A stretch of DNA of 64,000 bases from the NCBI GenBank assembly GCA_020848545.1, contig JADLHZ010000139.1, forward strand, positions 1-64,000, read 5' to 3'. The notes beneath the pieces were generated by a model, which worked only from the letters and a program-made list of their open reading frames with translations, ran no database searches and was not told where the DNA came from. The position numbers and the translations under genes are program-made. Shown in pieces: positions 6,892-32,730 of this stretch. Each line of letters begins with the position of its first letter. The stretch's first letter is position 1. The DNA comes from Deltaproteobacteria bacterium (GTDB lineage: Bacteria; Myxococcota; JADLHZ01).

Positions 6892-7728
6892 TCACGGGAT
6901 CTGCATGCCACCCGAGACGTTGAGCTCCTGGCCGGTGACGAAGTCCGACAGCGGCCCGCAGAAGAACAACACGACCCGCGCGACGTCGATGGGCTCGGCC
7001 GGGCGCCCGAAGGGGATGCGCTTGATCATCGCCTCGGCTTGATCGGCGGGGACGCCCAGATCGGCGCCGGCCTCCTTCGGCTGCGTCATGCGCGTGTTGG
7101 TGAAGCCCGGCGCCACCGCGTTGACGTTGATGCAAAACCGGCCCCACTCCTGAGCGATGGTGCGCGTGATGCCGACGTTGCCCATCTTCGCCGCGGCGTA
7201 GTTCACCTGCCCGGGGTTGCCGCGGATCGCCGCCGTCGAGAAGAAGTTGACGATCTTGCGGTGGTAGCGGACGCGCCCGTCGCGCTCGAGCTCGGCCTTC
7301 GCCGGGTCGCGCAGGTAGGGCGCCGCCGAGCGGATGCAGTTGAAGGTCCCCTTCAGGTTGACGTCGATGACGAGATCCCACGCCTCGTCGCTCATTTGGT
7401 GAACGACCTTGTCTCGGCTGATCCCTGCGTTGTTGACGAGGATGTCGAGCTTGCCAAAGCGCGCGACCGCCGCCCGCATCATCGCGTCGGTGTCTTGCCG
7501 CTTGGTCACCGAGCCGACGAAGATGGCCGCGGCGCCTGGGCGAATTGCCTCGCAGGCCGCGAGCGCCTCTTCGGCCGGCGCGTCGTCGACGTCGTTGATG
7601 AGCACGCTGGCGCCTTCGCCGACGAGCAGCTCGGCGCATGCGCGACCGATGCCGCGCCCGGCGCCGGTGATGACGGCGACCCGATCACTCAATTGCTGGA
7701 CATGCGTGTCCTGAATTGTCACTGCCAT
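6892..7728 (-). CDS. Short-chain dehydrogenase/reductase (FabG-like)
   Basis: 278 residues of classical SDR. The cofactor motif TGAGRGIG is near residue 21, NNAGISRDKV follows, the catalytic Tyr and Lys are in VNYAAAKMG with an upstream Ser (FFSTAAIRG), and the end motif is GPLSDFVTGQELNVSGGMQIP. The D in NDVDDAP after beta2 points to NAD(H) preference. An insert (PYLRDPAKAELERDGRVRYHRK) lies before the catalytic strand. It is divergent from the molybdenum hydroxylase operon across a short intergenic palindrome (7730-7744), so it may act on the same substrate. Role inferred; fold certain. Confidence 0.85.
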   Translation of the reverse strand: MAVTIQDTHVQQLSDRVAVITGAGRGIGRACAELLVGEGASVLINDVDDAPAEEALAACEAIRPGAAAIFVGSVTKRQDTDAMMRAAVARFGKLDILVNNAGISRDKVVHQMSDEAWDLVIDVNLKGTFNCIRSAAPYLRDPAKAELERDGRVRYHRKIVNFFSTAAIRGNPGQVNYAAAKMGNVGITRTIAQEWGRFCINVNAVAPGFTNTRMTQPKEAGADLGVPADQAEAMIKRIPFGRPAEPIDVARVVLFFCGPLSDFVTGQELNVSGGMQIP

Positions 7729-15800: not shown

Positions 15801-17183
15801 TCAAAGCCCGCTGCGGCCGACGAACGCGCCGGAGACCTTCTCGACGCGGAGCTTGGCGAGCTCGGCGCTCAGTCTTTCGGTGAGCACGGAGAGCTCGGCG
15901 CGGCGCGCGGCATCGAGCGCGTCGGCGTAGTCAATATACGTGGTGGTGCCCGCGTCGTAGTTGTTCTTCGCGAGCTCCGCCGCCTCGCGCGTGAGCTCGA
16001 GCTGTTCGGTGGCGATGGCGAGCGTCGCCTCGGCGCCCCGCAGCTCGATCAGCGCACGCTCTTGCTCCGCGCGCGCCTTGTTCTCCGTCGCGCGCTGCTG
16101 GTGCTCGGCTTCGCTCAGGCGCGCGTGCGCGGCGCGCAGGCTCGCTTCCCTCGCGCCGCCGTCCCAGATGTTCCACTCGAGCCCCACGGTCATGGACCAG
16201 AGATCGTTCCTGCCGTAGAGTCCCGGGAGGTTGCTCCAGCGGTACTCGCCGCTCACGCCCACGTTCGGCGCGTAGGCGAAGGCCTCGGCCCGCGCTTGCC
16301 CCCGCGCGAGCCGTACGGACGCGCCGGCAGCGCGCACGTCGGCGCGCTGGGACACGGGGGTGCTAGGCGCCGGGCCCCGTCGCATCGGCGGCAGCTCGAC
16401 CTCGAAGCTCGCGTCGCGCGCGAGCATCGCGGCGAGCGCGATCTTCGTGCTCGCATACGCACTCTGCGAGCGCGCGAGCTCCTGCTCGAGGCGCGTGCGG
16501 TCGAGCTCGGTGCGGAGCAAGTCGGCGCGGCCGAGCGCCCCGGCGGCGTGTCGTGACCGCGCGTCGCGCTCGCGCTCTTGCTGGCTCTGCAAGAGCTTGC
16601 GCTGCACCGCGCACACTTCCCGTAGCGTCGCTGCCCCATAGTAGAGCTGCGCCACGCCGAAGAGCATCTCGCCGCGCGCGCTCTCCACCTGCAGCTCGGC
16701 CGCGGCCACCGCGAGGTAGGCGTTTTGGATCAGCGGCCAAACGGCGGGGGCGAGCAGCGCCTGGCTGAGCTTCACCTGCGCGCCGTACTGCTGGCGGCCG
16801 GCGAACACGATCTCGCGCATGCCGCTCGGCGCGAGCGCGAGCGTCGTCGGCTGCCCAGGCGGGTTCGTTGTCGACGGCGCGCGATTCGGATCGAAAGGCG
16901 GGCTCGTCGGCTGCCCGAAGTCTCGCACGTAGTGCCCCGTCGGTACCGTCAACGTCGCGGCTGCGGAGTTGAGGGTGTAGCCGGCCGACGCGCTCAAGTG
17001 CGGAAAGTATGCAGCCCAAGCGCGGTGCGTGAGCGTCCTCGTCTCCGCCAAGCGATCGCGCGCCACCATGAGGTCCAAGTTCTGCGCGTCCGCCGCGGCG
17101 AGCGCGGCCTCGTAGCTGAGGATCTCGGCCGGCGCCGCTGCGAGCCATGCCAGCGCCGCAAGAAGTGCGAGCGTCACGGCCAC
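15801..17183 (-). CDS. TolC-like outer membrane efflux protein
   Basis: 460 residues starting at GTG 17183 with a signal peptide (VTLALLAALAWLAAAPAE). Two repeats of the outer-membrane-efflux-protein domain are visible as long heptad-rich helices (LRAAHARLSEAEHQQRATE, KARAEQERALIELRGAEATL) with strand segments (PNVGVSGEYRWSNLPGLYG, MTVGLEWNIWDGG). The NYDAGTTTYIDYADALDAAR motif is typical of TolC/NodT-type channels. It overlaps the RND pump gene by 10 nt and is the last gene of the lipoprotein-TetR-MFP-RND-OMP operon. It forms the exit duct of the tripartite pump. Confidence 0.87.
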   Translation of the reverse strand: MAVTLALLAALAWLAAAPAEILSYEAALAAADAQNLDLMVARDRLAETRTLTHRAWAAYFPHLSASAGYTLNSAAATLTVPTGHYVRDFGQPTSPPFDPNRAPSTTNPPGQPTTLALAPSGMREIVFAGRQQYGAQVKLSQALLAPAVWPLIQNAYLAVAAAELQVESARGEMLFGVAQLYYGAATLREVCAVQRKLLQSQQERERDARSRHAAGALGRADLLRTELDRTRLEQELARSQSAYASTKIALAAMLARDASFEVELPPMRRGPAPSTPVSQRADVRAAGASVRLARGQARAEAFAYAPNVGVSGEYRWSNLPGLYGRNDLWSMTVGLEWNIWDGGAREASLRAAHARLSEAEHQQRATENKARAEQERALIELRGAEATLAIATEQLELTREAAELAKNNYDAGTTTYIDYADALDAARRAELSVLTERLSAELAKLRVEKVSGAFVGRSGL

Positions 17184-20100
17184 CTCACGGCGCGCAGGTC
17201 GCGCACGCAGACGGCGTAGAGCACCGGCACCAACACGAGCGTGATGAGCGTGGCGATCGTCAGGCCGCCGATCTGCGCGAAGCAGAGCGGCTCCCAGAGC
17301 GGCCCGCCGTGCGCCGCGAGCGGAAAGAGTGCGAACACGGTGGCGGCCACGGTGATGACCACCGGGCGCATGCGCGCGACGCCGGCCTCGATCAGCGCCT
17401 CCTCGAGCGGCCGCCCGCGGTGGCGCTCTTCTTCGATGAACTCGAAGAGCACGATGACATGACTGACGATGACGCCGGTGAGGCTGGCGATGCCAAGAAA
17501 CGCCATGAAGCCGAAGGGCGCTTGCATGGCGGAGAGCGAGAGCAGCGCGCCCACGACGCCGAAGGGGATGGCGGCGAAGACGATGAGCGGCTTGATGACG
17601 TGACGCAGCTCGATGGCGAGCGTCAGAAAGATCAACGCAACGGACACGATCATCGCCAGCGCCACTTGGCCAAACGCCTTGCTCTGCGCCTCGTGCTCAC
17701 CGCCTACCTGCATCGCGTAGCCGGGCGGCAGGCGCCCGCGCAGCTGCTCGAGCGCCGGCATCGCGCGCTCGAGCACGGCCGCCGGCAGCACGTACGCGGC
17801 CGGGAACGCGCTGACGGTGATCGTGCGAAAGTGATTGCGAGCGCGCAGCTTGCCGCTCTCGAGCGCGTAATCGATGTGCGAGACCTGTCCCAGCGGCACC
17901 CGAGCGTTCGAGCGCGTGGAGTAGACGTAGAGGTTCGACAGGTCGGCCAAGCGCGCGCGCTCGGCCGGCCGCATGCGCGCGATGATCGGGATGTTGCGGC
18001 TGCCTTCGCGCAGGGCGCCCACCTCCATTCCGTTCATGGCGCTCACCGAAGAGACGGCTACGTCCAGGTTCGTCACCCCGGCGAGGTTGGCGCGATCGGC
18101 GTCCACCTCGAGGCGCGCGACGAAGCTCTCCGGGCCCCAGTCGTCACGCACGCGGCGCGCCTCTGGCACCGCGCGCAGGATCGCCTTGGCCTCCTCTGCG
18201 ATCGCGCGCAGCGCCTCGATGGACTCACCTGCAAAGCGGATCGACACAGGCACGCCCACGGGCTCGCCCGTCTCGAGCTCGCGCACGTCTACGCGCGCGC
18301 CGCTCACCCGCGCCGAGAGCGCCTCCTGCAACGGAGCGACGAAGGCCAGCGTGTCGTGCTTGTCGTGCATCGTGACGACGAGCTGCGCGAAGTTGAGCTG
18401 CTGCTGCTCCGGGATGAGCGAGAACCAGAAGCGCGGGCTGCCCGCGCCCACGTAGGTCGAGACTGAGTCCACGACGCGCCGTCCGAGCTGCGCCTCGCGC
18501 CCGGCGGCCTGCTCGCGAATGACGGCCTCTACGTCTGCGGCGGCGCGATCCGTGGCGGAGAGCGGCGCGTCCTCCGGCAGCCACACGTCGACGTAGAAGA
18601 GGTACGAAAGGTCTTTAGGAAAGAAGCTGCGCTCGAGCCGCGTCGCCCCGTAGGCCGAGGCGGCGAGCGCCGCCACAGCGACGAAGAGCACCAGGCGCCG
18701 GTGCGCGATCGCAGCGTGCGCGAGGCGCGCGTACCCACGCAGGATCGCGGGGCGCGGCTTATCTTCCTCGCGCTTCGTCGCAGGCAGGTAGCTGCCGAGG
18801 AGCGGCACGAAGGTCATCGACACCAGGCGCGAGGCGACGAGCGAGCAGGCGAGCACGACTGGCAGCGTGTGGATGAAGCGCCCGATGTCTCCCTTCAGCA
18901 GCAAGAGCGGCAAATATGCGACGATGTTGATGAGCGTCGCGAAGAGGATCGCCTTGGCGAGCTTGGTCGGCCCGAGCCACGCTGCCACGCGCGCGGAGTG
19001 GCCCCGGGCGATCTCGTGCTTGATTGCATCCCCTGCCACCACCGGATCGTCGACGAGCAGCCCGAGCGCGATGATGAGCGAGCCTATTGACACCTGCTGC
19101 AGATCGACGCCGAGCACGTGCATGAAGCCGAAGGTCATCGCCAGCGTGAGCGGGATGCTCACGGCCATGATCAACGAGCTGCGCCACTCCCAAAATCCGA
19201 TGAGCGCGATGGCGATGACGAGCAGCACAGCCTCGTAGAGGCTCTTCATGAAGAGGTCGACGTTCTCAGCGACCTGCCGCGGCTGGTCGCTCACGCGCGC
19301 GAGCACCAGGTCCGGTGGCAGCAGCGCGCGCGCCTCGCTCAACGCTCCCTCGACGGCCGCGCCAAAGGCAGCGATCTGCTGGTTCTGCCGCATGTACACC
19401 GCCAGGCTCACCGCGCGGCTGCGTCGCCAGCCGCCGTCGGCGTCACGCCAGGCAAGGTGGTTCAGCACGCGCGGCGGATCCTCGTAGCTGCGGGTGACGT
19501 CGACGACGTCACGCAGGTAAACCGGCGAGCCGCGCGGGGAGGCGCCGGCGATGATCGCAGCGAGCTCGTCTTCGCTCGTGAGCGCGCCGCGCGGATCGAT
19601 CGTGAGATTCTTCCTCGAAACGGGGAGCACGCCGCCGGGCACTGCGATGTTGCGTGCGGAGACGAGATCCTTCAGCTGGGCCGGCGCGAGGTCGTAGGCT
19701 GCCAAGCGCTCTTGTGAATAGCTGAGATAGACAGCCTCCGGGCGCACGCCCGTGCGGATCACCTTCGCCACGGACGGCGCGGCGCGGAGCGTGCGCTCGA
19801 GCGCTTCGGAGTAGTCGTCGAGCTCGCGGTAAGTGTAGCGCGCGCCAGCGGTCGCCGTCAGGAGGCCTTCGACGGCCTCGAGGTCCGGCACGACGATCGG
19901 GGGCCACACGTCCGGGTGCAGCGGCTGGAGATAGGTCTCGGCGTGCGCCGCGACGAGCGCGCCGAGCTGCTCGTCCGCACGCGGCCCCGCTGCGAGGGCG
20001 AAGTCGACGGCGACGAAGCCGCTGCCCCGGGTGAGGCGGAGGTCTTGCGCGAGGCCGCTCGCCTCGAGCTTCGTCGCCAAGAAGGTCTGCTCGCGCTCGA

Positions 20101-20710
20101 ACACGAGGCCCCGCGTCGCGTGCGCAAAGCTCACGACGACGCTGCGCCGCGCTCCACCGCGTGGCGCCGCAGCCCGCGCGCTCGCGAGGCCTCGCCGCAC
20201 CTCGCGGGCACGCAGCATCAGGTCCACCTCGCTCACGGGCGGGCTGGCAAGCGTGACGAGGAGCGACGCCGTGTCGCCAAAGTCCTTGTAGAACCGCACG
20301 GGCCCGGCGCCCTCGGGAAGGTCGCTGACGGCGTCGAGCTTGAGCTGGATGTCGTCGAGCTCCTTGCCCACGTCCGTGACGCGCTCGTCGATGGTGATCT
20401 GCACGACCGCGAAGCCGTTGCGCGAGATGGACTCGATGCGCTCGACCTTGGCGTTCTCTGCGATCTTGGCCTCGAGCTTGCGCGTGACGAGCTGCTCGAC
20501 CTTCTCCGCCTTCGCCGCCGGCCAGGGGCAGACGAGGAGCGCGAAGCGAAAGGGGATCACCGGATCCTTGCGCTTGGGCATCTGCTGGTAGGCGAAGACG
20601 CCCCAGGCGAGCGTGCACACGAGGAGCAGCCACGCGAGCTGCTTATTCTCCACGAAGTAGCGCGCGACGCGGCCGGCGTGCGCGTGGGTCTTCACCTCAT
20701 CGTTCAGCAT
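17174..20710 (-). CDS. RND-family efflux pump inner membrane subunit
   Basis: 1178 residues, slightly longer than AcrB-type pumps (about 1030-1050). The first TM (LAWLLLVCTLAWGVFAYQQMP) is followed by a porter domain, then TM4 with the proton-relay pair in ALGLLVDDPVVAGD, a second porter half with FFPKDLSYLFYVDVWLPE, and C-terminal TMs (LTLAIELRHVIKPLIVFAAIPFG, FMAFLGIASLTGVIVSHVIVLFEF). The extra length is spread through the porter domain. The family of origin is the broad AcrB/MMPL-like HAE group; heavy-metal motifs were not seen. It exports hydrophobic compounds using proton motive force; the neighbouring lipid-like pathway suggests a natural product or lipid. Confidence 0.9.
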   Translation of the reverse strand: MLNDEVKTHAHAGRVARYFVENKQLAWLLLVCTLAWGVFAYQQMPKRKDPVIPFRFALLVCPWPAAKAEKVEQLVTRKLEAKIAENAKVERIESISRNGFAVVQITIDERVTDVGKELDDIQLKLDAVSDLPEGAGPVRFYKDFGDTASLLVTLASPPVSEVDLMLRAREVRRGLASARAAAPRGGARRSVVVSFAHATRGLVFEREQTFLATKLEASGLAQDLRLTRGSGFVAVDFALAAGPRADEQLGALVAAHAETYLQPLHPDVWPPIVVPDLEAVEGLLTATAGARYTYRELDDYSEALERTLRAAPSVAKVIRTGVRPEAVYLSYSQERLAAYDLAPAQLKDLVSARNIAVPGGVLPVSRKNLTIDPRGALTSEDELAAIIAGASPRGSPVYLRDVVDVTRSYEDPPRVLNHLAWRDADGGWRRSRAVSLAVYMRQNQQIAAFGAAVEGALSEARALLPPDLVLARVSDQPRQVAENVDLFMKSLYEAVLLVIAIALIGFWEWRSSLIMAVSIPLTLAMTFGFMHVLGVDLQQVSIGSLIIALGLLVDDPVVAGDAIKHEIARGHSARVAAWLGPTKLAKAILFATLINIVAYLPLLLLKGDIGRFIHTLPVVLACSLVASRLVSMTFVPLLGSYLPATKREEDKPRPAILRGYARLAHAAIAHRRLVLFVAVAALAASAYGATRLERSFFPKDLSYLFYVDVWLPEDAPLSATDRAAADVEAVIREQAAGREAQLGRRVVDSVSTYVGAGSPRFWFSLIPEQQQLNFAQLVVTMHDKHDTLAFVAPLQEALSARVSGARVDVRELETGEPVGVPVSIRFAGESIEALRAIAEEAKAILRAVPEARRVRDDWGPESFVARLEVDADRANLAGVTNLDVAVSSVSAMNGMEVGALREGSRNIPIIARMRPAERARLADLSNLYVYSTRSNARVPLGQVSHIDYALESGKLRARNHFRTITVSAFPAAYVLPAAVLERAMPALEQLRGRLPPGYAMQVGGEHEAQSKAFGQVALAMIVSVALIFLTLAIELRHVIKPLIVFAAIPFGVVGALLSLSAMQAPFGFMAFLGIASLTGVIVSHVIVLFEFIEEERHRGRPLEEALIEAGVARMRPVVITVAATVFALFPLAAHGGPLWEPLCFAQIGGLTIATLITLVLVPVLYAVCVRDLRAVRWP

Positions 20711-20730
20711 GGCTCGTCCACCCTCTTCGC

Positions 20731-21846
20731 CTACGGCACGATCGCGACCGCCGCGCCGTCGTGGAGCAGGCTTGCGCCGCTCACGACTACGCGCTCGGTC
20801 TCCGCCAGCCCGTCGAGCACCTCGACGTCGTTGCCGTCGATGTCGCCCACTTGCACGACCCGCGTGCGGGCCACGCTCCGCGCTGCCGTGCCGTCGATCA
20901 CCATCGTGGCAAAGCGCCCCGCCTCGCCCGGCGCGCGCACGATCGCGTCGAGCGGCACCCAGAGCCGGCTCTTGGCGCGGTCGCCGTCCGGCACGCCGAG
21001 CGCCGCGATCATGCCGGCCCGCAGGCGCCCGTCGGCGTTGTCGAGGGTCAGCTCGATGTCGAAGACGCGGCTGCTCATGTCCGCTACGGCGGCGACGCGG
21101 CTCACGGTGCCGCGCAGGAGCTGGCGTCCGAGCGCGTCCACGCTCACGTCCAGGTCCGTGCCCAGGGTGATCTTCTCGAGCATGTAGTCCGGCACCCCGA
21201 AGACCGCCTTCATCTTGGTGGTGTCTGCGATGACGAAACCCGGGCTGCCGGGGCCAACCAAGGTGCCTACCTCCACGAAGCGGCGCAGCACGATGCCCGA
21301 GAGCGGCGCTCGTAGCGACGAGTCCGCCATGGCCAAGCGCGCCTCGTCGAGCTGCGCCCGCGCGGCGGCGAAGGTGGCGCGGCCTGCCTCTGCGCGCGCG
21401 CTGGCGCCTTCGAACGCCATCGGGGTGATCGAGCTCGAGCTCTGCAGCTGCTGCGCGCGCGCGAGGTCGAGCGCGGCGTGCTCCGTGGCCGCCTTGGCCT
21501 GGGCGAGCTGCGCGCGCGCTTGCTCGAGCTTGACGCGGTAGTCGCTCGCGCGCAGGCGAGCGAGCACGGTGCCAGCCTGGACGCTGTCGCCCTCCTGAAT
21601 GAGGCGCGTCCTCGCCGCGCCGCGCGCCGTCTCCTTGGTCGTGGCGATGGTCTGCACGTAACCGCCCACCTTGAACGCGAGATCAACCCGCGTGGCCGGC
21701 TCGATGTTCGCCGCGTAGCGCAGCGCGCGGTCGAGGGCACGGCGAGCCACCGGGCGCACGCGGACGGGGATGTCTGGCGGCGGCGGCGGCGGCGGCGGGC
21801 GGGCACACCCAGCGACGAACAGCAAAGCGAGCAACGATCGCATCAT
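20731..21846 (-). CDS. Periplasmic adaptor (membrane fusion) lipoprotein
   Basis: 371 residues. Signal plus lipobox LALLFVAGC, then a proline run (ARPPPPPPPPDIPV). Lipoyl/hairpin halves (RLIQEGDSVQAGTVLARLRA and STSLRAPLSGIVLRRFVEVG-like segment), a coiled-coil hairpin (QARAQLAQAKAATEHAALDL), and beta-barrel/membrane-proximal parts (LTLDNADGRLRAGMIAALGV). It links the RND pump to the outer membrane channel. Its start overlaps the TetR stop (ATGA), and the RND start follows 20 nt downstream. Confidence 0.88.
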   Translation of the reverse strand: MMRSLLALLFVAGCARPPPPPPPPDIPVRVRPVARRALDRALRYAANIEPATRVDLAFKVGGYVQTIATTKETARGAARTRLIQEGDSVQAGTVLARLRASDYRVKLEQARAQLAQAKAATEHAALDLARAQQLQSSSSITPMAFEGASARAEAGRATFAAARAQLDEARLAMADSSLRAPLSGIVLRRFVEVGTLVGPGSPGFVIADTTKMKAVFGVPDYMLEKITLGTDLDVSVDALGRQLLRGTVSRVAAVADMSSRVFDIELTLDNADGRLRAGMIAALGVPDGDRAKSRLWVPLDAIVRAPGEAGRFATMVIDGTAARSVARTRVVQVGDIDGNDVEVLDGLAETERVVVSGASLLHDGAAVAIVP

Positions 21847-23991: not shown

Positions 23992-25527
23992 CTAAAGGAG
24001 GCGCTCTTCGACGGCGAGCGGCTGCTCACGCCGATCCGTGTAGCCTGCCCGGTGCAAGAACGGGCTCGCGCTAGACAGCGGCGGGAAGCGCGCGCCGGGC
24101 ACCTCGCTCGCGCGAACGTGATCGCGTGACCAAAAATTCGTCCGGCGCAGGTGGTCCTTCAGGTACTTGTGCTTGTTGACGGACACCAGGCGCTCATAAA
24201 GCCAGTTGAGGCTCGGGACCATCCGGTAGTGCCATTGGTAGACTTGATACATGCCGAGGAACACGAGCGCCGGCGTGCGCAGCGCCCGTGGGCCTAGGCT
24301 CGCGAGCTTCTTGTTCTGAACGGCACGCTTGATCCGCCGCGCGGCCCGCCGCGGCGAGTAGTACTGCGTGGTCAACCAGCGGATGCCCTGCCAGAGCTGC
24401 TCTTCGCTCATCAGCGTTGGCCTGACGATGACGTGGCCCTTGCCGACGTAGGCGTCGTAGTCGTGGCTGAGCAAGCGCCCCTCGCGCTCGTAGCGCCGCC
24501 AGATCGCCGTGCCTGGGAACGGGATCTCGGTCGTGAAGGTGCTGTGGAGCAGGTCCGAGGAGTCGAGGAACTCGAGCGTCTCTTCGAAGACCTCGGGGGT
24601 GTCCGAGTCGAAGCCGAACATCCAGTTGCCGCTGCCCATGATCCCGGCGTCGTAGATATTGGCGGCCGCCTGCCGGTAGTTGCCCGCCTGCGCGCGCTTG
24701 CCTGTGCGATCGAGCGTCTGCTGGCTCACCGATTCGTAGCCGGACGAAATGAACACGCAGCCGGCGTCGTGCGCTTGCGCGAGGCGATCCCGATCGAGCG
24801 CGAACTCGTTGCGCGCTTGCATCCCGAACGGCACCTTGAGCTTCGAGAGCTCGAAGAACAGCTCGCGCGAGTGATCGGGATCGGCCGGCAGGTTGTCGTC
24901 GACGAAGTACATGCTGCGAATGAACGCCGGTCGCCGCTTCACCTGCTCGATGACGTGCGCGATCGGGTAGGTGCGAAAGCCCTGCGTCATGCGCTTGGCG
25001 AAGCAGAAGCCGCACTTCTCCGGGCAGCCGCGGCTGGCGATGATCGGATAGTAGAAGCTCCCGTAGCGATCGAGCTTCATCAGATCGATCCGCGGCTGCG
25101 GCAGCGCGGCGAGATCGGGCGGCGGATCGCGGTAGATGCCTGAGACGCGCGAAGGGTTCGAAAGAAACTCGTCGCAGATCCGCATCCATGACGTCTCGCC
25201 TTCGCCGCAGACGACCGCGTCGGCGTGCGCGAGCGCTTCCTCCGGCAGCGCGGTGGCGTGGTGGCCGCCGAGGACCACCGTCACCCCCTTGCTTCGGTAC
25301 AAATCCGCCAACGCATACGCGGCGTTGATTCGCGGGGTCGAGGCGCTGATCCCGACGAGATCGGTCGGCTCGTCGAGGAACAAACGCTCGCGGAGCAGAT
25401 CGACGATGCAGATGTCGAAGTGAGGCGGGGTCACGCTGGCAAGCGTCGCCAAGCTCAGGGTCGGAACCTCGAGCTCCCACGGGATGGTGATGAGCTTGAC
25501 GCGAGGACGGCGCATGGATGAAGCCAT
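23992..25527 (-). CDS. B12-binding-type radical SAM enzyme
   Basis: 511 residues. The N-terminal cobalamin-type domain (about 20-135: TDLVGISASTPRINAAYALAD, GVTVVLGGHHATALPEEAL, ADAVVCGEGE) is followed by a radical SAM core with CPEKCGFC (Cys168, 172, 175), YFVDDNLPADP, and SSGYESVSQQTLDRTGKRA, typical of the BchE/HpnJ-like class. The C-terminal 120 residues are basic and helical. Related enzymes methylate or modify lipids such as hopanoids and tetrapyrroles; here the divergent squalene-monooxygenase-like gene suggests a terpenoid substrate. Divergent operator at 25548-25563. Confidence 0.82.
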   Translation of the reverse strand: MASSMRRPRVKLITIPWELEVPTLSLATLASVTPPHFDICIVDLLRERLFLDEPTDLVGISASTPRINAAYALADLYRSKGVTVVLGGHHATALPEEALAHADAVVCGEGETSWMRICDEFLSNPSRVSGIYRDPPPDLAALPQPRIDLMKLDRYGSFYYPIIASRGCPEKCGFCFAKRMTQGFRTYPIAHVIEQVKRRPAFIRSMYFVDDNLPADPDHSRELFFELSKLKVPFGMQARNEFALDRDRLAQAHDAGCVFISSGYESVSQQTLDRTGKRAQAGNYRQAAANIYDAGIMGSGNWMFGFDSDTPEVFEETLEFLDSSDLLHSTFTTEIPFPGTAIWRRYEREGRLLSHDYDAYVGKGHVIVRPTLMSEEQLWQGIRWLTTQYYSPRRAARRIKRAVQNKKLASLGPRALRTPALVFLGMYQVYQWHYRMVPSLNWLYERLVSVNKHKYLKDHLRRTNFWSRDHVRASEVPGARFPPLSSASPFLHRAGYTDRREQPLAVEERLL

Positions 25528-25547
25528 GCTCGGTCATTAGATCTTTG

Positions 25548-25563
25548 TGGACAATACTGTCTA
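25548..25563. promoter_or_regulatory. TGGA-N8-TCTA operator between divergent genes
   Basis: TGGACAATACTGTCTA has inverted half-sites TGGACA and TGTCTA. It lies 20 nt from the radical SAM ATG (25527) and 73 nt before ATG 25637, so it can serve both. It is one member of the 16-bp family described in the findings. Confidence 0.55.
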
Positions 25564-25636
25564 CTTTCTCTGACTGCGGAAAATGGACAAGCGCATCGCC
25601 TTCGTGCAAGGAGGCGAGCCAAAACGAGGGGTCACG

Positions 25637-26944
25637 ATGAAGGCACGTCATGACGCGGTAGTGATCGGTGGCTCGTTTGCCGGCGCAGCGTCCGCGGTGG
25701 CGCTCGCCAGGGAGGGCCTCGATGTTCTGCTGCTCGAGCCTGGCCTCGCCGACGCGCGGCGTCTCGCCGGTGAGCTGATTCAGGCACCGGGGGTGGAAGC
25801 GCTCGCGGGCATCGGCTTGCTCGACGCCGTTTGGGCTGCTGGTGCGGTCGCTTCTTGTGGCTTTGCGATTGTCACGCCCGACTCGGAGCCGGTGGTGCTC
25901 TCCTACGCCGAGAGCGAGGGTTGTCACCCAAACGGGCTCGCCATCGAGCACGCCACGCTCGCGCGGGTCCTGCTCGACACGGCGGCCGCCACCGCGAACG
26001 TCACCTTGGTCCGGGGGCGTGTCACGTCGGTGCGCCAGTCGAGCCACGGTCCCGCGCAGGTCACCATCTCGGAAGGCGGCAGTGAGAGGACGATCGACAC
26101 CGATCTCGTCGTCGCGGCCGACGGACGCATGTCGAAGACCCGCGAGAGCGCGGGCATCAGCGTGAAGCGCAGCGAGGGCTTCCGCATGCTCGGCTGCAAG
26201 CTCGACGGCGAGCACCTGCCCTTCGAGGGTTTCGGCCACGTCTTTCTCGGAGGGCGCCGTCCGATCCTCTGCTACCGCGTCGCGGCTGACTCACTGCGGA
26301 TCATGTTCGAGCTGACCGACGATGCCGCCGACAAGAAGCAGCCGTGCGAAGCCGATCTCGACGTGCTGCCGGCGCGGATCGCTACAGCGGTGCGCCGCGA
26401 GTTCGCCGCCGGGCGCGGCATCTCCGCCATGGTGTTCGGGCTGAGCCCCGAGCGCGCCGCCGCGGGGCGCGTGGCGCTCGTCGGCGACTCGGGCGGCTGC
26501 GTTCACCCGATCACCGCGACTGGCGTTTCGTTCTGCTTCAAGGACGCCGCGTTACTGGCACGCTGCGTTGCGCGTTCGCCGGGGGACGTCCCGCGCGCGC
26601 TCTTGGCCTACAATGAGGAGCGCGCGCGGCCGATGCTGACCCGGGTCTTGCTCGGGCCCCTGCTCGCCGAAGCCCTCGGCGATCCGGCGCCCGAGATGAA
26701 GGCGCTGCGGGACGGCTTGCTTCTCTACTGGCGGCGTGACCGGAGCGGCCGCGCCGCGTCGATGGGGCTCTTGTCGACGCACGAGCCGAGCAAGCTCGTG
26801 CTCGCACGGGAGTACGCGAAGGTCGCGGCGTACGCATTCTTGGGCTTGGTCGACGCCGAGAAGGCCCCGCCCGACCGGGTGAAGATCGCGCTAGCGCTCG
26901 GTAAACGTGCGGTGAAAGTGGCGCGCGACGTGCTCGCGCCCTGA
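25637..26944 (+). CDS. FAD-dependent monooxygenase, squalene-epoxidase-like
   Basis: 435 residues. ATG 25637 has ACGAGGGG just upstream and puts the FAD fold at residue 7 (HDAVVIGGSFAGAASAVALA); an in-frame ATG at 25583 is weaker. E at the end of beta2 (LLLEPG), the RLAGELIQAPGVEAL region, and GRVALVGDSGGCVHPITATGVSFCFKDAALLA resemble squalene monooxygenases (GELLQPGG and GD..HPLTGGG motifs) and UbiH relatives. Asp of GDS binds the FAD ribityl chain. With the CYP51-like P450 and Rieske oxygenase beside it, a triterpenoid or sterol substrate is plausible; a polyketide or ubiquinone-type substrate cannot be excluded. Confidence 0.72.
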   Translation: MKARHDAVVIGGSFAGAASAVALAREGLDVLLLEPGLADARRLAGELIQAPGVEALAGIGLLDAVWAAGAVASCGFAIVTPDSEPVVLSYAESEGCHPNGLAIEHATLARVLLDTAAATANVTLVRGRVTSVRQSSHGPAQVTISEGGSERTIDTDLVVAADGRMSKTRESAGISVKRSEGFRMLGCKLDGEHLPFEGFGHVFLGGRRPILCYRVAADSLRIMFELTDDAADKKQPCEADLDVLPARIATAVRREFAAGRGISAMVFGLSPERAAAGRVALVGDSGGCVHPITATGVSFCFKDAALLARCVARSPGDVPRALLAYNEERARPMLTRVLLGPLLAEALGDPAPEMKALRDGLLLYWRRDRSGRAASMGLLSTHEPSKLVLAREYAKVAAYAFLGLVDAEKAPPDRVKIALALGKRAVKVARDVLAP

Positions 26945-26961
26945 CGCGGGCGAGGGCGCCC

Positions 26962-28071
26962 TCACGCTTCCAAGAGCGTTTCAACGACGGTGGGCGAACC
27001 ACGCTTGTTCTGGAGTCGCTGCGCGAGGCTCGCTTGATACTCTTCCCACTTGCGCAGCGTCAGCTGCTGCGCTTTGACGACGAAGGGGTTGAACTCGTAG
27101 ACCGGCCGGCCGCCGTGCACGTCGTGGCCGAGCTGCTCTTCGGCCATGATCCAGTTGTCCTGCGCGAGCACCGGCAAGACATAGATCTTGCTCGTGAGCT
27201 TGATGAGCGGCGCGATCAGCGCTTTCGGCAGCGTGAAGTTGGTGAACGGGAGCTTGAAGCTCTTGAAGGTGAACAAATAAAAGACGTGCGTCGTTCGCTC
27301 GTCGATCGGTCGCAGGAACAACCAGTGCAGGTACTTGCCGTCGATGTCCGAGCGTTGGAACGGGTACTGATACCAGAGCTTGATCTGGCTCAGGTTCACC
27401 GAGCCCGTATCGGCGAAGTACTTCACGAACGGGCCGCCGCCGAGCGTGGTCTCGTAGCTGACCTCGATGGCGTCCTTCGTCGCTTCGACGCTGAGCAGCT
27501 TCGCCTTGTGGAACGGCCGGTAATCGCGGTGCAGAAACTCGTGGTAGAAGTCGCACACGTTCTCGACGATCATCGAGTGGTGGCACTTGTTGACGAAGTC
27601 GACCGGGATCGTGGTCCAGCCCGCGTCGATCGGATCGAGCTGCGGTAGGGCGGAGAGCGTGGCCTTCGAGCGGTCGCCGGGAAAGATCCAAACGATGCCG
27701 TACTTCTCGGCGACGGGGAAGTTGCCGACGCGGATGTCTGGCTTGTTCTTCGTGCGAACCTCGTGCGGGATGTCGGTGCACCTGCCTTCACCGTTGAACA
27801 CCCAGCCGTGATACGGGCACTGGACTCCGCAGCCCTTCACCTCGCCGAGTGAGAGCTTGATGTTGCGGTGCGGACAGCGGTCCTCGATCGCTTGAACGCG
27901 GCCTTCCTCGTCGCGGAACACGGCGATCGACTGCTTCCAGAAGACGACCTCTTTGACGTCCCCCTTCTGCAAATCCTTCGACCACATGGCCGGATACCAA
28001 TAGTCGCCCGAAAGTCCGGCGGCACGGACGCGTTCCCGATGCGTGAGGGTTGGCTCGCTCGTGGTGGTCAT
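26962..28071 (-). CDS. Rieske oxygenase (KshA/SdmA-like)
   Basis: 369 residues from ATG 28071, which has a GGAG just upstream; the frame stays open further but without a good start. Rieske 2Fe-2S ligands Cys66, His68, Cys85, His88 (DRCPHRN, QCPYHGW). The mononuclear iron site is NVCDFYHEFLH (Asn171, Asp174, His177, His181). One alpha-type subunit without a beta partner resembles steroid-ring hydroxylases such as KshA and the sterol C-4 demethylase SdmA of methanotrophs. No reductase is adjacent, so a housekeeping reductase must supply electrons. It lies 13 nt downstream of the P450 gene, as one operon. Confidence 0.85.
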   Translation of the reverse strand: MTTTSEPTLTHRERVRAAGLSGDYWYPAMWSKDLQKGDVKEVVFWKQSIAVFRDEEGRVQAIEDRCPHRNIKLSLGEVKGCGVQCPYHGWVFNGEGRCTDIPHEVRTKNKPDIRVGNFPVAEKYGIVWIFPGDRSKATLSALPQLDPIDAGWTTIPVDFVNKCHHSMIVENVCDFYHEFLHRDYRPFHKAKLLSVEATKDAIEVSYETTLGGGPFVKYFADTGSVNLSQIKLWYQYPFQRSDIDGKYLHWLFLRPIDERTTHVFYLFTFKSFKLPFTNFTLPKALIAPLIKLTSKIYVLPVLAQDNWIMAEEQLGHDVHGGRPVYEFNPFVVKAQQLTLRKWEEYQASLAQRLQNKRGSPTVVETLLEA

Positions 28072-28084
28072 TCGCTTCTCCTTC

Positions 28085-29479
28085 TCAACCGGCCGCTTGA
28101 ATGGGCGCCGCGTCGAGCGGGCTCGTGAGGGGTACTTGGACGAGGGGGCGCTTCTTGCGCCGGTAGCGCGCGCGGCACGGCTGGTGCGGACCAACGAGGA
28201 TGCGCTTGTAGTCGGGGTAATAGCGCGGCTCGAGGAGCTCGAGCTCGAAGTGGCGCGCCAGGACGCTCGACGTGGCGACCAGCTGCAGCGTTGCGAAGAC
28301 GGCGCCGAGGCAGCGGTGCTTGCCGCCGCCGAAGGCGATGAACGCGAGCGGGTGCTGGCGGTCTTCTTCGCGCCCCGGCCCGTAGCGATCGGGATCGTAC
28401 TTCCACGGATCCTTGAAGATCGTCTCGATGTGGTGCGAGGCGGCCGGCGAGCACAGGGCCATCTGCCCCGCCTTCACCTCGTACTGCTCGTAGCTGAAGT
28501 CCTTGAGCACGCGGCGCATCAGCATGATGATCGCCGGGTACATGCGTAGGGTCTCCTTGACGCTCCGCTCGAGCAAGGTCATCGCCCGCAGGTCTTCGAC
28601 CTTCAGCGTCGTCCTGTCCCCGAGCACGGCCTTTTGCTCCTCCATCACCCGCGCGAAGTAGGCCGGATGTTGGTTCATCAAGATCGTGTTCCAGCAGAAG
28701 GTGACGCCGCTCGTGTGGTGGCCGGCGAACATCACGGTGAGCAGGATGCCGACGATCTCGTCGTCGCTGAGCGCGCGGCCGTCCGAGTACTTCGCCTCGA
28801 GCAGCGTCTGCAGGATGTCGGACTCCTGCCGTCCCTCGCGGCGGCGCTCGTCGACGATGCGCTTGATCATCTCGCCCATCTTCACGCGCGCCTTGTCGCG
28901 GCGGCGGTGCGCAGGGATTGGGAGGTACGGGTTCAAGAACGACCAGAGCGTCAGCCCCCCTTCGAGCTCTTGGTACAGCCGCGCGAACTCGCCCGAGAGG
29001 TGCTTTCTGAAGTCGCCCCCGAGCAGCGCGCGGCTCGACGTGTAGATCGTCAGCTCGTTGCCGATGTCGTAGAGGTCGACCACGCCTTCGTTGTCCCAGC
29101 GATCGAAGAACGCCTCGGCTTCTTCGACGAAGAGCTCGGCGTAGGTGCGCAGGCGCGCCTCGCGCAGCCCCGGATGAAGAAACGCCATTTGCTCCTTCAT
29201 CAGCTCGGGCGTCGTATCGTAGGCGATGCCCTTGCCGAAGATCGGCACCATGAACTGGTAGACCTCCTTCTGGCTCAGCACCTCGTCGGGCTGGCGAAAG
29301 AAGGCCTCGTGCGCCTTGAGGCCGGAGAACACGACGGTGTCGGCCCCCGGTAGCTTCATGCCGAAGACATCACCGTGCCTTCGTCTTCCGCGCAGGAGAA
29401 AGTCGACGGGGTCTCTGCGTATCTCGAGCGCGTGCCCTAGAAACGGGACCAAACCATCCATCATTGCTGGTCTTGTCAT
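28085..29479 (-). CDS. Cytochrome P450, CYP51-like
   Basis: 464 residues. Haem motif FGGGKHRCLG with Cys390; ExxR at 309-312 (ETLR); I-helix AGHHTS at 252-257, the form typical of CYP51 (sterol 14-alpha demethylase) rather than the usual AGxDT; FGKGIAYDTTPELMKEQ in the B'-C region also resembles CYP51. No N-terminal membrane anchor, so soluble as in bacterial CYP51. CYP51 removes the 14-alpha methyl of lanosterol-type sterols. Sequence-level assignment to that activity is probable, not certain. Followed by the Rieske oxygenase, a combination known from bacterial sterol pathways. Confidence 0.85.
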   Translation of the reverse strand: MTRPAMMDGLVPFLGHALEIRRDPVDFLLRGRRRHGDVFGMKLPGADTVVFSGLKAHEAFFRQPDEVLSQKEVYQFMVPIFGKGIAYDTTPELMKEQMAFLHPGLREARLRTYAELFVEEAEAFFDRWDNEGVVDLYDIGNELTIYTSSRALLGGDFRKHLSGEFARLYQELEGGLTLWSFLNPYLPIPAHRRRDKARVKMGEMIKRIVDERRREGRQESDILQTLLEAKYSDGRALSDDEIVGILLTVMFAGHHTSGVTFCWNTILMNQHPAYFARVMEEQKAVLGDRTTLKVEDLRAMTLLERSVKETLRMYPAIIMLMRRVLKDFSYEQYEVKAGQMALCSPAASHHIETIFKDPWKYDPDRYGPGREEDRQHPLAFIAFGGGKHRCLGAVFATLQLVATSSVLARHFELELLEPRYYPDYKRILVGPHQPCRARYRRKKRPLVQVPLTSPLDAAPIQAAG

Positions 29480-29653: not shown

Positions 29654-31111
29654 TCAGCGCAAGGCCTGAATGACTGCCTCGAGTGACTTCTTCGCGTCGC
29701 CGAAGAGCATGCGGGTGTTGTCGATGTAAAACAGCGGGTTCTCGACGCCTGCGTAGCCGGCGGCCATGCCGCGCTTGACCACCACCGTGACCCGCGCTTT
29801 CCACACCTCGAGCACCGGCATACCGTAGATGCTCGAGCTCGTGTCGGTCAGCGCGCCAGGGTTGACGATGTCGTTGGCGCCAATCACCAGCACGACATCG
29901 GTCGCCGCGAAGTCCTGGTTGACGTGCTCCATCTCGTGGACGATGTCGTAAGGAACGCCCGCCTCCGCAAGCAGCACGTTCATGTGACCGGGCAGCCGTC
30001 CGGCGACCGGATGGATGGCAAAGCGCACGTTGACGCCCCTGCTGCGGAGCAGCGCGGTCAGCTCCTTCACGGCGAGCTGCGCCCGTGAGACCGCCATGCC
30101 GTAGCCGGGCACGACGATCACGCTGCGAGCGTCGCGCAGGCGCGCGGCGACTTCGTCCGCTTTGACCTCCGTCACATCACCGGCCGGCGCGACGACGGAC
30201 TGCGGCTTGCTGTCGGCGGTGCCGAAGCCACCGAAGACGACGTTGAGGATCGAACGGTTCATCGCGCGGCACATGATGATCGACAGGATCGTCCCGCTCG
30301 AACCGACGAGCGCGCCGGTCACGATCAAGAGGTCGTTGGCGAGCATGAAGCCCGCGGCCGCGGCGGCCCACCCAGAGTAGCTGTTGAGCAAGGACACGAC
30401 GACCGGCATGTCAGCGCCACCGATCGCCATCACGAGGTGCACGCCGGCGAGCCCGGCGAGCGTCGTCGCGAGCACGAGATGGAGGACGGCGCTGGGGGCT
30501 TCTGCGAGCATGAACGGGCCGGCGAGCCCTATGATGAGGAGGGCGAGGATCGCGTTCATCAGGTGACGTCCCGGCAACAAGAGCGGCTTGCCGGAGATCG
30601 TGCCCTTCAACTTGCCCCATGCGACGACAGAGCCGGTGAAGGTGATGGCGCCAACCGCCACGCCTACCCAGACCTCGGCGAGGTGCACGATGCGCTCGCC
30701 CTCCGTGCCTGCGGTGGGTGCGGTGGGTGCGAGGTACGAGGCGAAGCCGACGAGCACGGCGGCGAGGCCAACGAAGCTGTGCAAGACAGCGACGAGCTCG
30801 GGCATGGCGGTCATCTCGACGCGCCGCGCGAGCGAGACTCCGATCCCCGAGCCGACAAGAACCGTTGCCCCGAGCGCCACGACGCTCGCCGTGGGCAGCG
30901 CGGAGAGCGACTCTGGCAGCGACTCCGAGAGTGCGCTCGGGCTGACGTGACGGAGCAGCCACGCGACGACCGTGATCACCCCGGCGACGGTCATGCCGAT
31001 CATCGCGTAGACGTTGCCCTGTCTGGCCGTCTCTTGCTTCGACAACGCGCCGAGCGCGCGAATGAAGAGCACCCCGGCGAGGAGGTAGGCCACGATCATG
31101 ACGCCGTTCAC
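29654..31111 (-). CDS. pntB: NAD(P) transhydrogenase subunit beta
   Basis: 485 residues. Nine or so N-terminal TM helices ([18 protein letters not shown] ... [39 protein letters not shown] in segments), then the NADP(H)-binding domain III with [47 protein letters not shown] and [17 protein letters not shown]. It uses the proton motive force to drive hydride transfer from NADH to NADP+. Start GTG 31111 overlaps the alpha-subunit stop. It would supply NADPH for the neighbouring P450, Rieske and reductase steps, which is inference from location. Confidence 0.95.
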
Positions 31112-32679
31112 TGCCGCCCGCCTTTTCTCCCGCTCGGCGCGTCACGGTGGAACATCCGCAGCATGCGATTGGTGACGAAGAACCCGCCCGCGATGTTCAC
31201 CGCTGCGAGCAGCACAGCAATGAGGCCGATGATCGTCGCGGCATTGAGCTGAGTGCCCACTTGCAAGATGCCGCCGATGATGATGATGCCCGAGATGGCG
31301 TTGGTGACGCTCATCAGCGGCGTGTGCAGCGCGGGGGTCACCGACCACACGACCTGCCAACCGACGAAGCAGGCCAGCACGAACACCGTGGAATGACGGA
31401 GGAACTCCGCTGGCGCGAAGCGTCCGAGCACGAAGAAGGCGATGATCGCGAAGAAGCCGGCGAGGTTTGTGCCCCAAGCGATGCGGGTCGGACGCATGAT
31501 CTCCTGCTGCTGTGCCTTGGCGGTCGGCGGCGGCGGCAAGGCGCGCTTGTGGGGCGGCGGCGCGGCGGGCCGCGGCGGCATCTTTGGCGGCGGCCCGCCG
31601 TTGTAGAGGAGGAGGGCCGGATGAATGACCTCGTTGTCGAGGGCGATGACGACGCCGTCGCCGACGGTGATCTCGGCGAGGAGATTGAGCAGGTTCATCG
31701 CGAAGAAGCGCGTCGCGGTGCTCGCCATGCGGCTCGCCAGATCGGTGAAGCCGATGATCTTGACGCCGTTGTGCTCGACGACGGCGCCCGGCTGACAGAG
31801 CTCGCAGTTGCCACCTTGCTCGGCCGCCATGTCGACCACGAGCGATCCGGGCTTGAGCGCCTCGACGACGTCGCGTGGCAAGAGAAGCGGCGCCTTCGAG
31901 CCCGGCACCAGGGCCGTCGTGATAATGACGTCTACCTCCTTCGCCTGCGCGCGAAAAAGGTCCATCTCGGCGGCGATGAACTCTGGGCTCATGCCTTTGG
32001 CGTAGCCGCCTTGTCCTTCACCGCTCTCGGTCAGGGCGACCGTCAGAAACTTGCCGCCGAGGCTCTCGACCTGCTCGCGCGCGGCGGCGCGGGTGTCGAA
32101 CGCAGACACCTCGGCGCCGAGCGCGCGCGCTGCGCCAAGCGCCGCGAGGCCGGCGACGCCGGCGCCGATGACGAGGACCTTTGCCGGCGGCGTGGAGCCC
32201 GCCGCGGTCACCTGAGGACCGAAGAAGCCCTGCGAGTGCGCCGCTGCCTCGATGACGGCGCGGTAGCCGGCGAGGTTCGCCATCGACGACAAGACGTCCA
32301 TCTTCTGCGCCCGCGTGATGCGCGGGATCTTCTCGAGCGCGATGACCGTGGCGCCGCGCGCAGCGAGTGCGTCGATGAGCCCGGGGTTGCGATCCGGATA
32401 GACGAGGCTCACCAAGATCGCGCCGTGCTTGAGCCGGCTCACTTCCTCGAGCGTTGGCGGGCGGACCTTGAGCACGACGTCCGCGTCCCACGCGTTCGAG
32501 ACGATCTCCGCGCCGGCGGCAGCAAGCGCTTCGTCGCTCTGGCTGGCCGCCGCCCCGGCCGCCGTCTCGACGCGCACGACGAGGCCGCTGCGCCTAAACG
32601 CCTTGACCGCTTGGACGCTGATGGCGACGCGCTTTTCACCGGGGAAGCTCTCTTTGACGATGCCGACGATGCTGCTCAC
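31108..32679 (-). CDS. pntA: NAD(P) transhydrogenase subunit alpha
   Basis: 523 residues, full-length single-chain alpha as in E. coli. Start GTG 32679 ([21 protein letters not shown]). NAD-binding domain I has [24 protein letters not shown] and [16 protein letters not shown]; a proline-rich linker (about 375-410) leads to four C-terminal TM helices ([53 protein letters not shown]). Ends in GTGA shared with pntB. A weak sigma54-like match (32693-32708) lies just ahead of the start. Confidence 0.95.
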
Positions 32680-32730
32680 GGATTCGCCTCTACGCGACGT
32701 GGGTCCCACTCACAACGATCGCGGCCGCGA

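Follow-up and report, generated by a model that had tools for sequence, protein, structure and literature searches.

A probable second sterol-demethylation operon with putative tailoring neighbours in a Myxococcota genome carrying a sterol-synthesis gene set

Does a group of four genes from a deltaproteobacterium of the phylum Myxococcota belong to a bacterial sterol pathway and, if so, what is its place in that pathway? The genes occupy positions 23992-29479 of contig JADLHZ010000139.1 (assembly GCA_020848545.1), within a stretch of 64,000 nucleotides that was analysed as a whole and is called the window here. They encode a cytochrome P450, a Rieske oxygenase, a flavoenzyme and a radical SAM protein, for which a preliminary description had proposed a possible sterol or triterpenoid pathway. 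Our analysis suggests, with a probability of roughly 80%, that the P450 and Rieske genes (CYP51b and SdmAb) form a second sterol-demethylation operon in a genome with a sterol-synthesis gene set, the route leading probably through lanosterol and the neighbouring genes being candidates for tailoring. All four genes are intact open reading frames at the following positions:

28085..29479, minus strand: CYP51b, second copy of sterol 14-alpha-demethylase, 464 amino acids (from PDB ranking, tree and motifs)
26962..28071, minus strand: SdmAb, second copy of the Rieske-type sterol C-4 demethylase oxygenase, 369 amino acids (from the NF052579 match)
25583..26944, plus strand: paralog of the squalene-epoxidase family of FAD (flavin adenine dinucleotide) monooxygenases, 453 amino acids, convergent with SdmAb (from PF08491 and fold)
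23992..25527, minus strand: cobalamin-binding radical SAM protein with B12-binding, Radical_SAM and DUF4070 domains and the cluster motif CPEKCGFC (from Pfam)

The P450 is a genuine CYP51, with 14-demethylation predicted from its sequence. Its best match in the PDB is the CYP51 of M. capsulatus (E 6e-114), and CYP51s head the ranking with 385-192 bits, the first clear member of another family being a CYP170-type protein (3dbg) at 147 bits. A tree of 62 P450s, most of them encoded in sterol loci, places CYP51b within the CYP51 clade (nodes 97 and 99) as sister to CYP51a, a copy encoded on contig C41 of the same genome (Shimodaira-Hasegawa-like approximate likelihood ratio test, SH-aLRT, 100). 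The two copies are in turn sister to the CYP51s of Nannocystaceae/Polyangia and other Myxococcota (support 99). All of our trees are quick searches, and their rows for human SQLE and M. capsulatus CYP51 are segments from PDB search alignments. CYP51b contains the I-helix motif FAGHHTSG, the haem motif FGGGKHRCLG and the further CYP51 motif YQFMVPIFGKGIAYDTTPE, and the CYP51 signatures Y-x4-P-x-FG-x-G-x-A/V-Y and A/GG-H/Q-HTS are found as YQFMVPIFGKGIAY and AGHHTS. The CYP51-like character that had been read earlier from the AGHHTS I-helix and the YQFMVPIFGKGIAYDTTPE region is thus borne out by motifs and phylogeny alike.

SdmAb matches the SdmA model NF052579 over its full length with 407 bits, far above any other family, and its iron ligands are intact in both the Rieske centre (C-x-H...C-x2-H) and the mononuclear-iron motif (NVCDFYHEFLH). 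The best PDB match to KshA (3-ketosteroid 9-alpha-hydroxylase) reaches 64 bits, and these scores rule out an assignment to KshA and steroid degradation. Of the single-subunit KshA/SdmA architecture named in the preliminary description, the SdmA part stands, while the KshA part falls with its weaker structure matches. Predators occur in the phylum Myxococcota, which would fit a pathway in which the Rieske protein and the P450 degrade or remodel sterols from eukaryotic prey. CYP51-linked sterol genes are also present in sterol-degrading Mycobacteriales (PMC13277303). Given the match to SdmA, not KshA, and a genome that encodes its own sterol synthesis, we regard such a use of prey sterols as very improbable.

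Between the stop of CYP51b and the start of SdmAb lies a gap of 13 bp that contains an AAGGAG ribosome site, and we therefore consider the two genes an operon. The window copies are 78% (CYP51) and 70% (SdmA) identical to those on C41, and their synonymous divergence (dS) is equal within error, at 0.58 (0.49-0.73) for CYP51 and 0.62 (0.50-0.79) for SdmA. The ratios of nonsynonymous to synonymous divergence (dN/dS) are 0.29 for the CYP51 pair and 0.37 for the SdmA pair. Judging from the sequences, the window pair is maintained under purifying selection with intact catalytic residues, and CYP51 and SdmA were duplicated jointly, so that this pair represents an additional demethylation module outside the main sterol locus. 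The ferredoxin encoded between CYP51 and SdmA on C41 is absent from the window pair. A CYP51-level match was present in 38 of the 43 genomes surveyed for copy number, and two recent copies were seen only in the source genome, which is the sole representative of its order in the comparison set. Scanning of genome contigs retrieved matches with an SdmA alignment and none with CYP51b as a single-protein query.

Contig C104 carries a further, tight run of paralogs (L172:8189-11576), consisting of an N-truncated C-24 sterol methyltransferase (SMT2), SdmB2 and, between them, a second cobalamin-type radical SAM gene. Its SMT and SdmB are 73% and 74% identical to those on C41. With a dS of ~1.0 for SdmB2/SMT2 as opposed to ~0.6 for CYP51/SdmA, one block duplication of all sterol genes is unsupported. 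SMT2 is unlikely to be a working methyltransferase, as its first ~87 residues are missing.

The preliminary description had noted no cyclase in the window; a search of the genome recovered both a cyclase and squalene synthases. Contigs C9, C10, C31, C36, C41, C66, C72, C84 and C104 all belong to this genome (G000) and lie outside the window. The sole triterpene cyclase is encoded at C41:19852-21855 on the minus strand (end of L014, start of L015) and matches human lanosterol synthase with 590 bits versus 135 bits for squalene-hopene cyclase, which identifies it as an oxidosqualene cyclase (OSC). It has the DCT motif (FDCTSD) and the product-determining triad Y,N,V. This triad has been reported for oomycete lanosterol synthases and those of some plants, the oomycete enzyme making lanosterol only (PMC5101207), and a valine at position 453 is likewise characteristic of lanosterol synthases from bacteria (PMC4919349). 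The predicted product of the C41 enzyme is probably lanosterol. A squalene-hopene cyclase was not found in the genome. On C41, CYP51a, a Rieske ferredoxin, SdmA, SdmB and an ERG24-type reductase follow one another in an operon with overlapping or close gene ends, and the contig also encodes an SMT with a Sterol_MT_C domain. Squalene synthases of the HpnC/HpnD and SQS types are scattered over the genome, as are five mostly isolated genes of the ERG4/ERG24 sterol reductase family (C66:16940, C36:102365, C41:8172, C10:56972 and C84:153356). A squalene epoxidase encoded on C9 falls together with epoxidases from within sterol clusters of Rokubacteria and is likely, by this grouping, the true squalene epoxidase of the genome. 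For an EBP isomerase, C41 gave no Pfam match and C72 a weak one of 40 bits. With CYP51, SdmA, OSC, SdmB, sterol reductases, SMT and a separate squalene epoxidase in one genome, the earlier proposal of a sterol or triterpenoid pathway is well supported.

The C41 cyclase reads GYHSSELWDT where most bacterial sterol clusters have the GARSxS-WDT type, and its eukaryote-like type is shared by two other metagenome-assembled genomes (MAGs; L053 with Y,H,I and L157 with Y,Q,V). Contig C41 further encodes a CPI-like protein (L014:13475-14224, plus strand; also L060:8547-9287) with no Pfam or NCBIfam match. It is 31% identical (101 bits) to a sequence taken as Arabidopsis cycloeucalenol cycloisomerase CPI1, a match of value as a lead only, and is perhaps a ring-B isomerase. 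The plant-type cycloartenol pathway hinted at by this gene is not accepted, since the Y,N,V triad of the OSC points to lanosterol.

In the pathway that we propose, squalene would come from the HpnC/HpnD-type and SQS-type synthases, the C9 epoxidase would epoxidise it, and the C41 OSC would cyclise the product, probably to lanosterol. CYP51 would take off the 14-alpha methyl, while SdmA would oxidise a C-4 methyl and SdmB, from C41 or C104, would decarboxylate and reduce. As their catalytic residues are kept and they are maintained by selection, CYP51b and SdmAb would most likely perform the same chemistry as the C41 pair, either differently regulated or acting on a later intermediate. The flavoenzyme and the cobalamin radical SAM enzyme would serve as sterol tailoring enzymes. 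Residue 105 (T. cruzi numbering) sets the preference of CYP51 for substrates with one versus two C-4 methyls, Phe favouring one (PMC2850312, PMC11089504). It is Phe in both CYP51a and CYP51b, Leu in Nannocystis and Ile in M. capsulatus. Because both copies carry Phe105, and by analogy with the eukaryotic enzymes from which this rule derives, we infer that one C-4 methyl would be removed first and the C-14 methyl thereafter, which is the order of plants and the reverse of that in Enhygromyxa, a member of the same family as Nannocystis that demethylates C-14 first (PMC10202945).

Several observations weigh against a second sterol-demethylation operon of this kind. SdmAb misses the curated cut-off of NF052579 (407 versus 600 bits) and is therefore classed as a homolog of the SdmA type outside the equivalog family that the model defines. 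The other myxobacterial SdmA-type proteins found also score below 600 bits (C41 copy, 421; G015, 400; G108, 364), G015 being from the same phylum as the source genome with an SdmA contig that matches the Myxococcota MAG IP29b_bin.29. As the model name points to methanotroph proteins, the shortfall may only reflect phylogenetic distance. The branch of SdmAb (0.60) is ~1.6x as fast as that of SdmAa (0.37), which could mean a changed substrate. Neither SdmB nor a ferredoxin adjoins the window pair; the SdmB partners lie outside the window, namely the copy on C104 and a short-chain dehydrogenase/reductase (SDR) on C41 with 431 bits to the SdmB model. Furthermore, Phe105 is common among bacterial CYP51s lacking an established reaction order, and the assembly (100% complete, 1.8% contamination) is divided into 163 contigs.

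The flavoenzyme exceeds the Pfam cut-off for squalene epoxidases (PF08491, 56 versus 20.1 bits). Its predicted model (pLDDT, predicted local distance difference test, 91.5) has human SQLE as the top PDB fold match with an E of 1e-29 and a template-modelling (TM) score of 0.86-0.88, the next protein following at 1.7e-21. Phylogenetically, it is sister to a paralog on C31 (97) and stands apart from the C9 squalene epoxidase. The residues H67-P68, invariant in 23/23 epoxidases from sterol loci, are replaced by Q-A; S200 is also lost, and the R-R at 225-226 (P225 region) is common to the C31 paralog. Tree and lost residues rule it out as the squalene epoxidase of the genome, so that of the squalene-epoxidase-like enzyme described earlier the family and fold hold and the role does not. 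A Bsr-type C-24 reductase is likewise unsupported, given the SQLE fold and a translation without the YxWxFP motif. From its sequence, the flavoenzyme appears to be a paralog with a changed substrate, for which the sterol side chain is a plausible target because its terminal isoprenyl group is identical to that of squalene.

Besides its B12-binding and radical SAM domains, the radical SAM protein has CxxxCxxC at residue 168. Its scores stay below all curated family cut-offs (best HpnJ, 92 versus 577.6 bits; HpnR, 47 versus 650), and it has just two weak relatives in the PDB. Among 48 genomes searched, close relatives (58-60%) were found only in the MAG Myxococcales HKST-UBA02, whose two copies form one clade with the window protein (support 100) on a long stem. 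Copy 1 lies 5 kb from the OSC and ERG24-type genes of that genome. Copy 2 belongs to an operon-like arrangement (L158:4167-10891) of a cobalamin radical SAM gene, a BioB-like radical SAM gene with a BATS domain, a squalene-epoxidase-family gene and an RND (resistance-nodulation-division) transporter gene. This transporter is HpnN/BstA-like (335 and 319 bits, in each case under the cut-off) and also matches a sterol-sensing domain, BstA being a proposed sterol transporter (PMC10942540). As the genome has no hopene cyclase, an HpnJ or hopanoid role for the radical SAM gene is ruled out, and a polycyclic triterpenoid substrate would here be a sterol.

Quite possibly, at somewhat less than even odds, neither the radical SAM gene nor the flavoenzyme has to do with sterols and their adjacency is a matter of chance; the radical SAM protein might then mature a peptide. 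In one HKST-UBA02 copy, the start of the radical SAM gene shares 4 bp with a 115-aa open reading frame that resembles a Nif11 leader and has a GG site (L157:9532-9879; no Pfam or NCBIfam match), the distant family members examined have non-sterol neighbours except for that on C104, and a homolog was found in 0/80 of the other SdmA loci surveyed. On the other hand, all three members of the subclade adjoin triterpenoid genes, the pairing with the flavoenzyme recurs in HKST-UBA02, and both copies there would lie this near to sterol genes by chance with a rough estimate of ~1/1,000 or less; the lack of a hopene cyclase again leaves a sterol as the polycyclic substrate. Chance adjacency would cover these two genes only and is compatible with CYP51b-SdmAb as a second demethylation operon. 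That the pair acts in some sterol reaction is a tentative proposal. A more specific role of the radical SAM enzyme as sterol modifier, e.g. in C-methylation of a ring or the side chain by analogy with HpnP/HpnR on hopanoids and together with the epoxidase-family monooxygenase, seems rather doubtful. Our literature search found no report of a radical SAM enzyme acting on sterols in bacteria; whether ring-methylated sterols could arise by a radical SAM route has been asked, motivated by fossil 2-methylsteranes (PMC6997595). Among the tailoring and export functions envisaged earlier for the radical SAM genes, SDRs and efflux pump, some support falls to the 23992-25527 gene only.

The same data bear on a possible secondary product, a triterpenoid or steroid other than the membrane sterol, that CYP51b and SdmAb would make together with the epoxidase-like and radical SAM enzymes and that the RND pump at 15801-21846 might export. 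The faster evolution of SdmAb, the lost residues of the epoxidase paralog, neighbours that differ from those on C41, and the BstA/HpnN-type lipid transporter at the end of the related HKST-UBA02 operon would agree with such a product. CYP51b, however, evolves at the same rate as CYP51a (branches 0.16 and 0.17), the two are identical across the I-helix and haem segments and differ in 1/7 B-C active-site residues (Met/Val at 106; list from PMC2850312), the genome has no second cyclase, and the best match of the window pump is a multidrug-type permease. We therefore consider a separate product unlikely and favour CYP51b-SdmAb as a second copy of the demethylation module.

Sterol synthesis with CYP51 and SdmAB is already known in Myxococcota, including that of cholesterol (PMC10202945, PMC12004948), in agreement with the preliminary description, and functional myxobacterial SMTs are known as well (PMC10070321). 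CYP51b resembles the bacterial CYP51s of M. capsulatus, Nannocystis and Enhygromyxa in signatures, fold family, clade and sterol-gene neighbours, but here occurs as one of two recent copies, a situation seen in no other of the 38 genomes that gave a CYP51-level match. SdmAb resembles the SdmA of SdmAB/SdmABC C-4 demethylation (PMC10202945) in its full-length match, iron ligands and the presence of SdmB in the genome, yet scores below the model cut-off and has no adjoining SdmB (SdmB1 on C41, SdmB2 on C104). The cholesterol loci of Sandaracinus and Minicystis (PMC12004948) share the phylum, a lanosterol-type pathway, SdmAB and sterol reductases, whereas the present genome has the Y,N,V OSC, SMT, CPI-like protein and a duplicated demethylation module. 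Compared with squalene epoxidases (human SQLE 6c6n and those of bacterial clusters), the flavoenzyme has the fold with C-terminal helices and PF08491 in common but is a paralog with the substitutions named above and a sister on C31. The radical SAM protein shares its B12-binding and radical SAM domains with the hopanoid-modifying HpnP, HpnR and HpnJ, but lies far under every family cut-off in a genome without hopene cyclase.

What is new is thus a maintained duplicate CYP51-SdmA operon, a modest variant, and the conserved pairing of an epoxidase-family gene with a cobalamin-type radical SAM gene in a triterpenoid-linked setting, of interest only if the pair acts on sterols. The genome adds a Myxococcota sterol-gene lineage whose cyclase apparently forms lanosterol and has a triad described in oomycetes and plants. 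No other genome examined contains a recent duplication of CYP51 and SdmA. Sterol genes of myxobacteria are relevant to the origin of eukaryotic sterol synthesis. Should the radical SAM enzyme act on sterols, bacterial sterol modification would gain a class, and alkylated sterane fossils a candidate source open to testing; if methylase-like, the enzyme would give bacteria a way of making unusual alkylated sterols.

SdmA loci of Actinomycetota (L118, L123, L088) include Nonomuraea and Streptomyces curacoi with OSC, CYP51, SdmA and SdmB together, and Lentzea with SdmA and SdmB. Two further features of the window adjoin the four genes:

29654..32709, minus strand: PntB/PntA transhydrogenase genes, upstream of CYP51b (from open reading frames and translations)
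25528..25582, no strand: divergent promoter region of 55 bp between the radical SAM and flavoenzyme genes (from sequence)

The gap of 174 bp between PntB/PntA and CYP51b suggests a separate promoter. PntB/PntA possibly supply NADPH or are mere neighbours; comparative support was not found. To the left of the four genes lie a TetR-type regulator and the RND efflux system, and at 3939-5774 (plus strand) the window encodes a 611-aa protein with a B12-binding domain and no above-threshold radical SAM match. The divergent promoter region contains the imperfect palindrome TGGACA-N4-TGTCTA (25548-25563). As the search pattern was taken from this site after it had been seen, a shared operator for the radical SAM and flavoenzyme genes is not counted. 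A second TGGACA-N4-TGTC(C/T) palindrome lies at 7697-7712 ahead of an SDR gene, at a chance expectation of ~0.1 per window.

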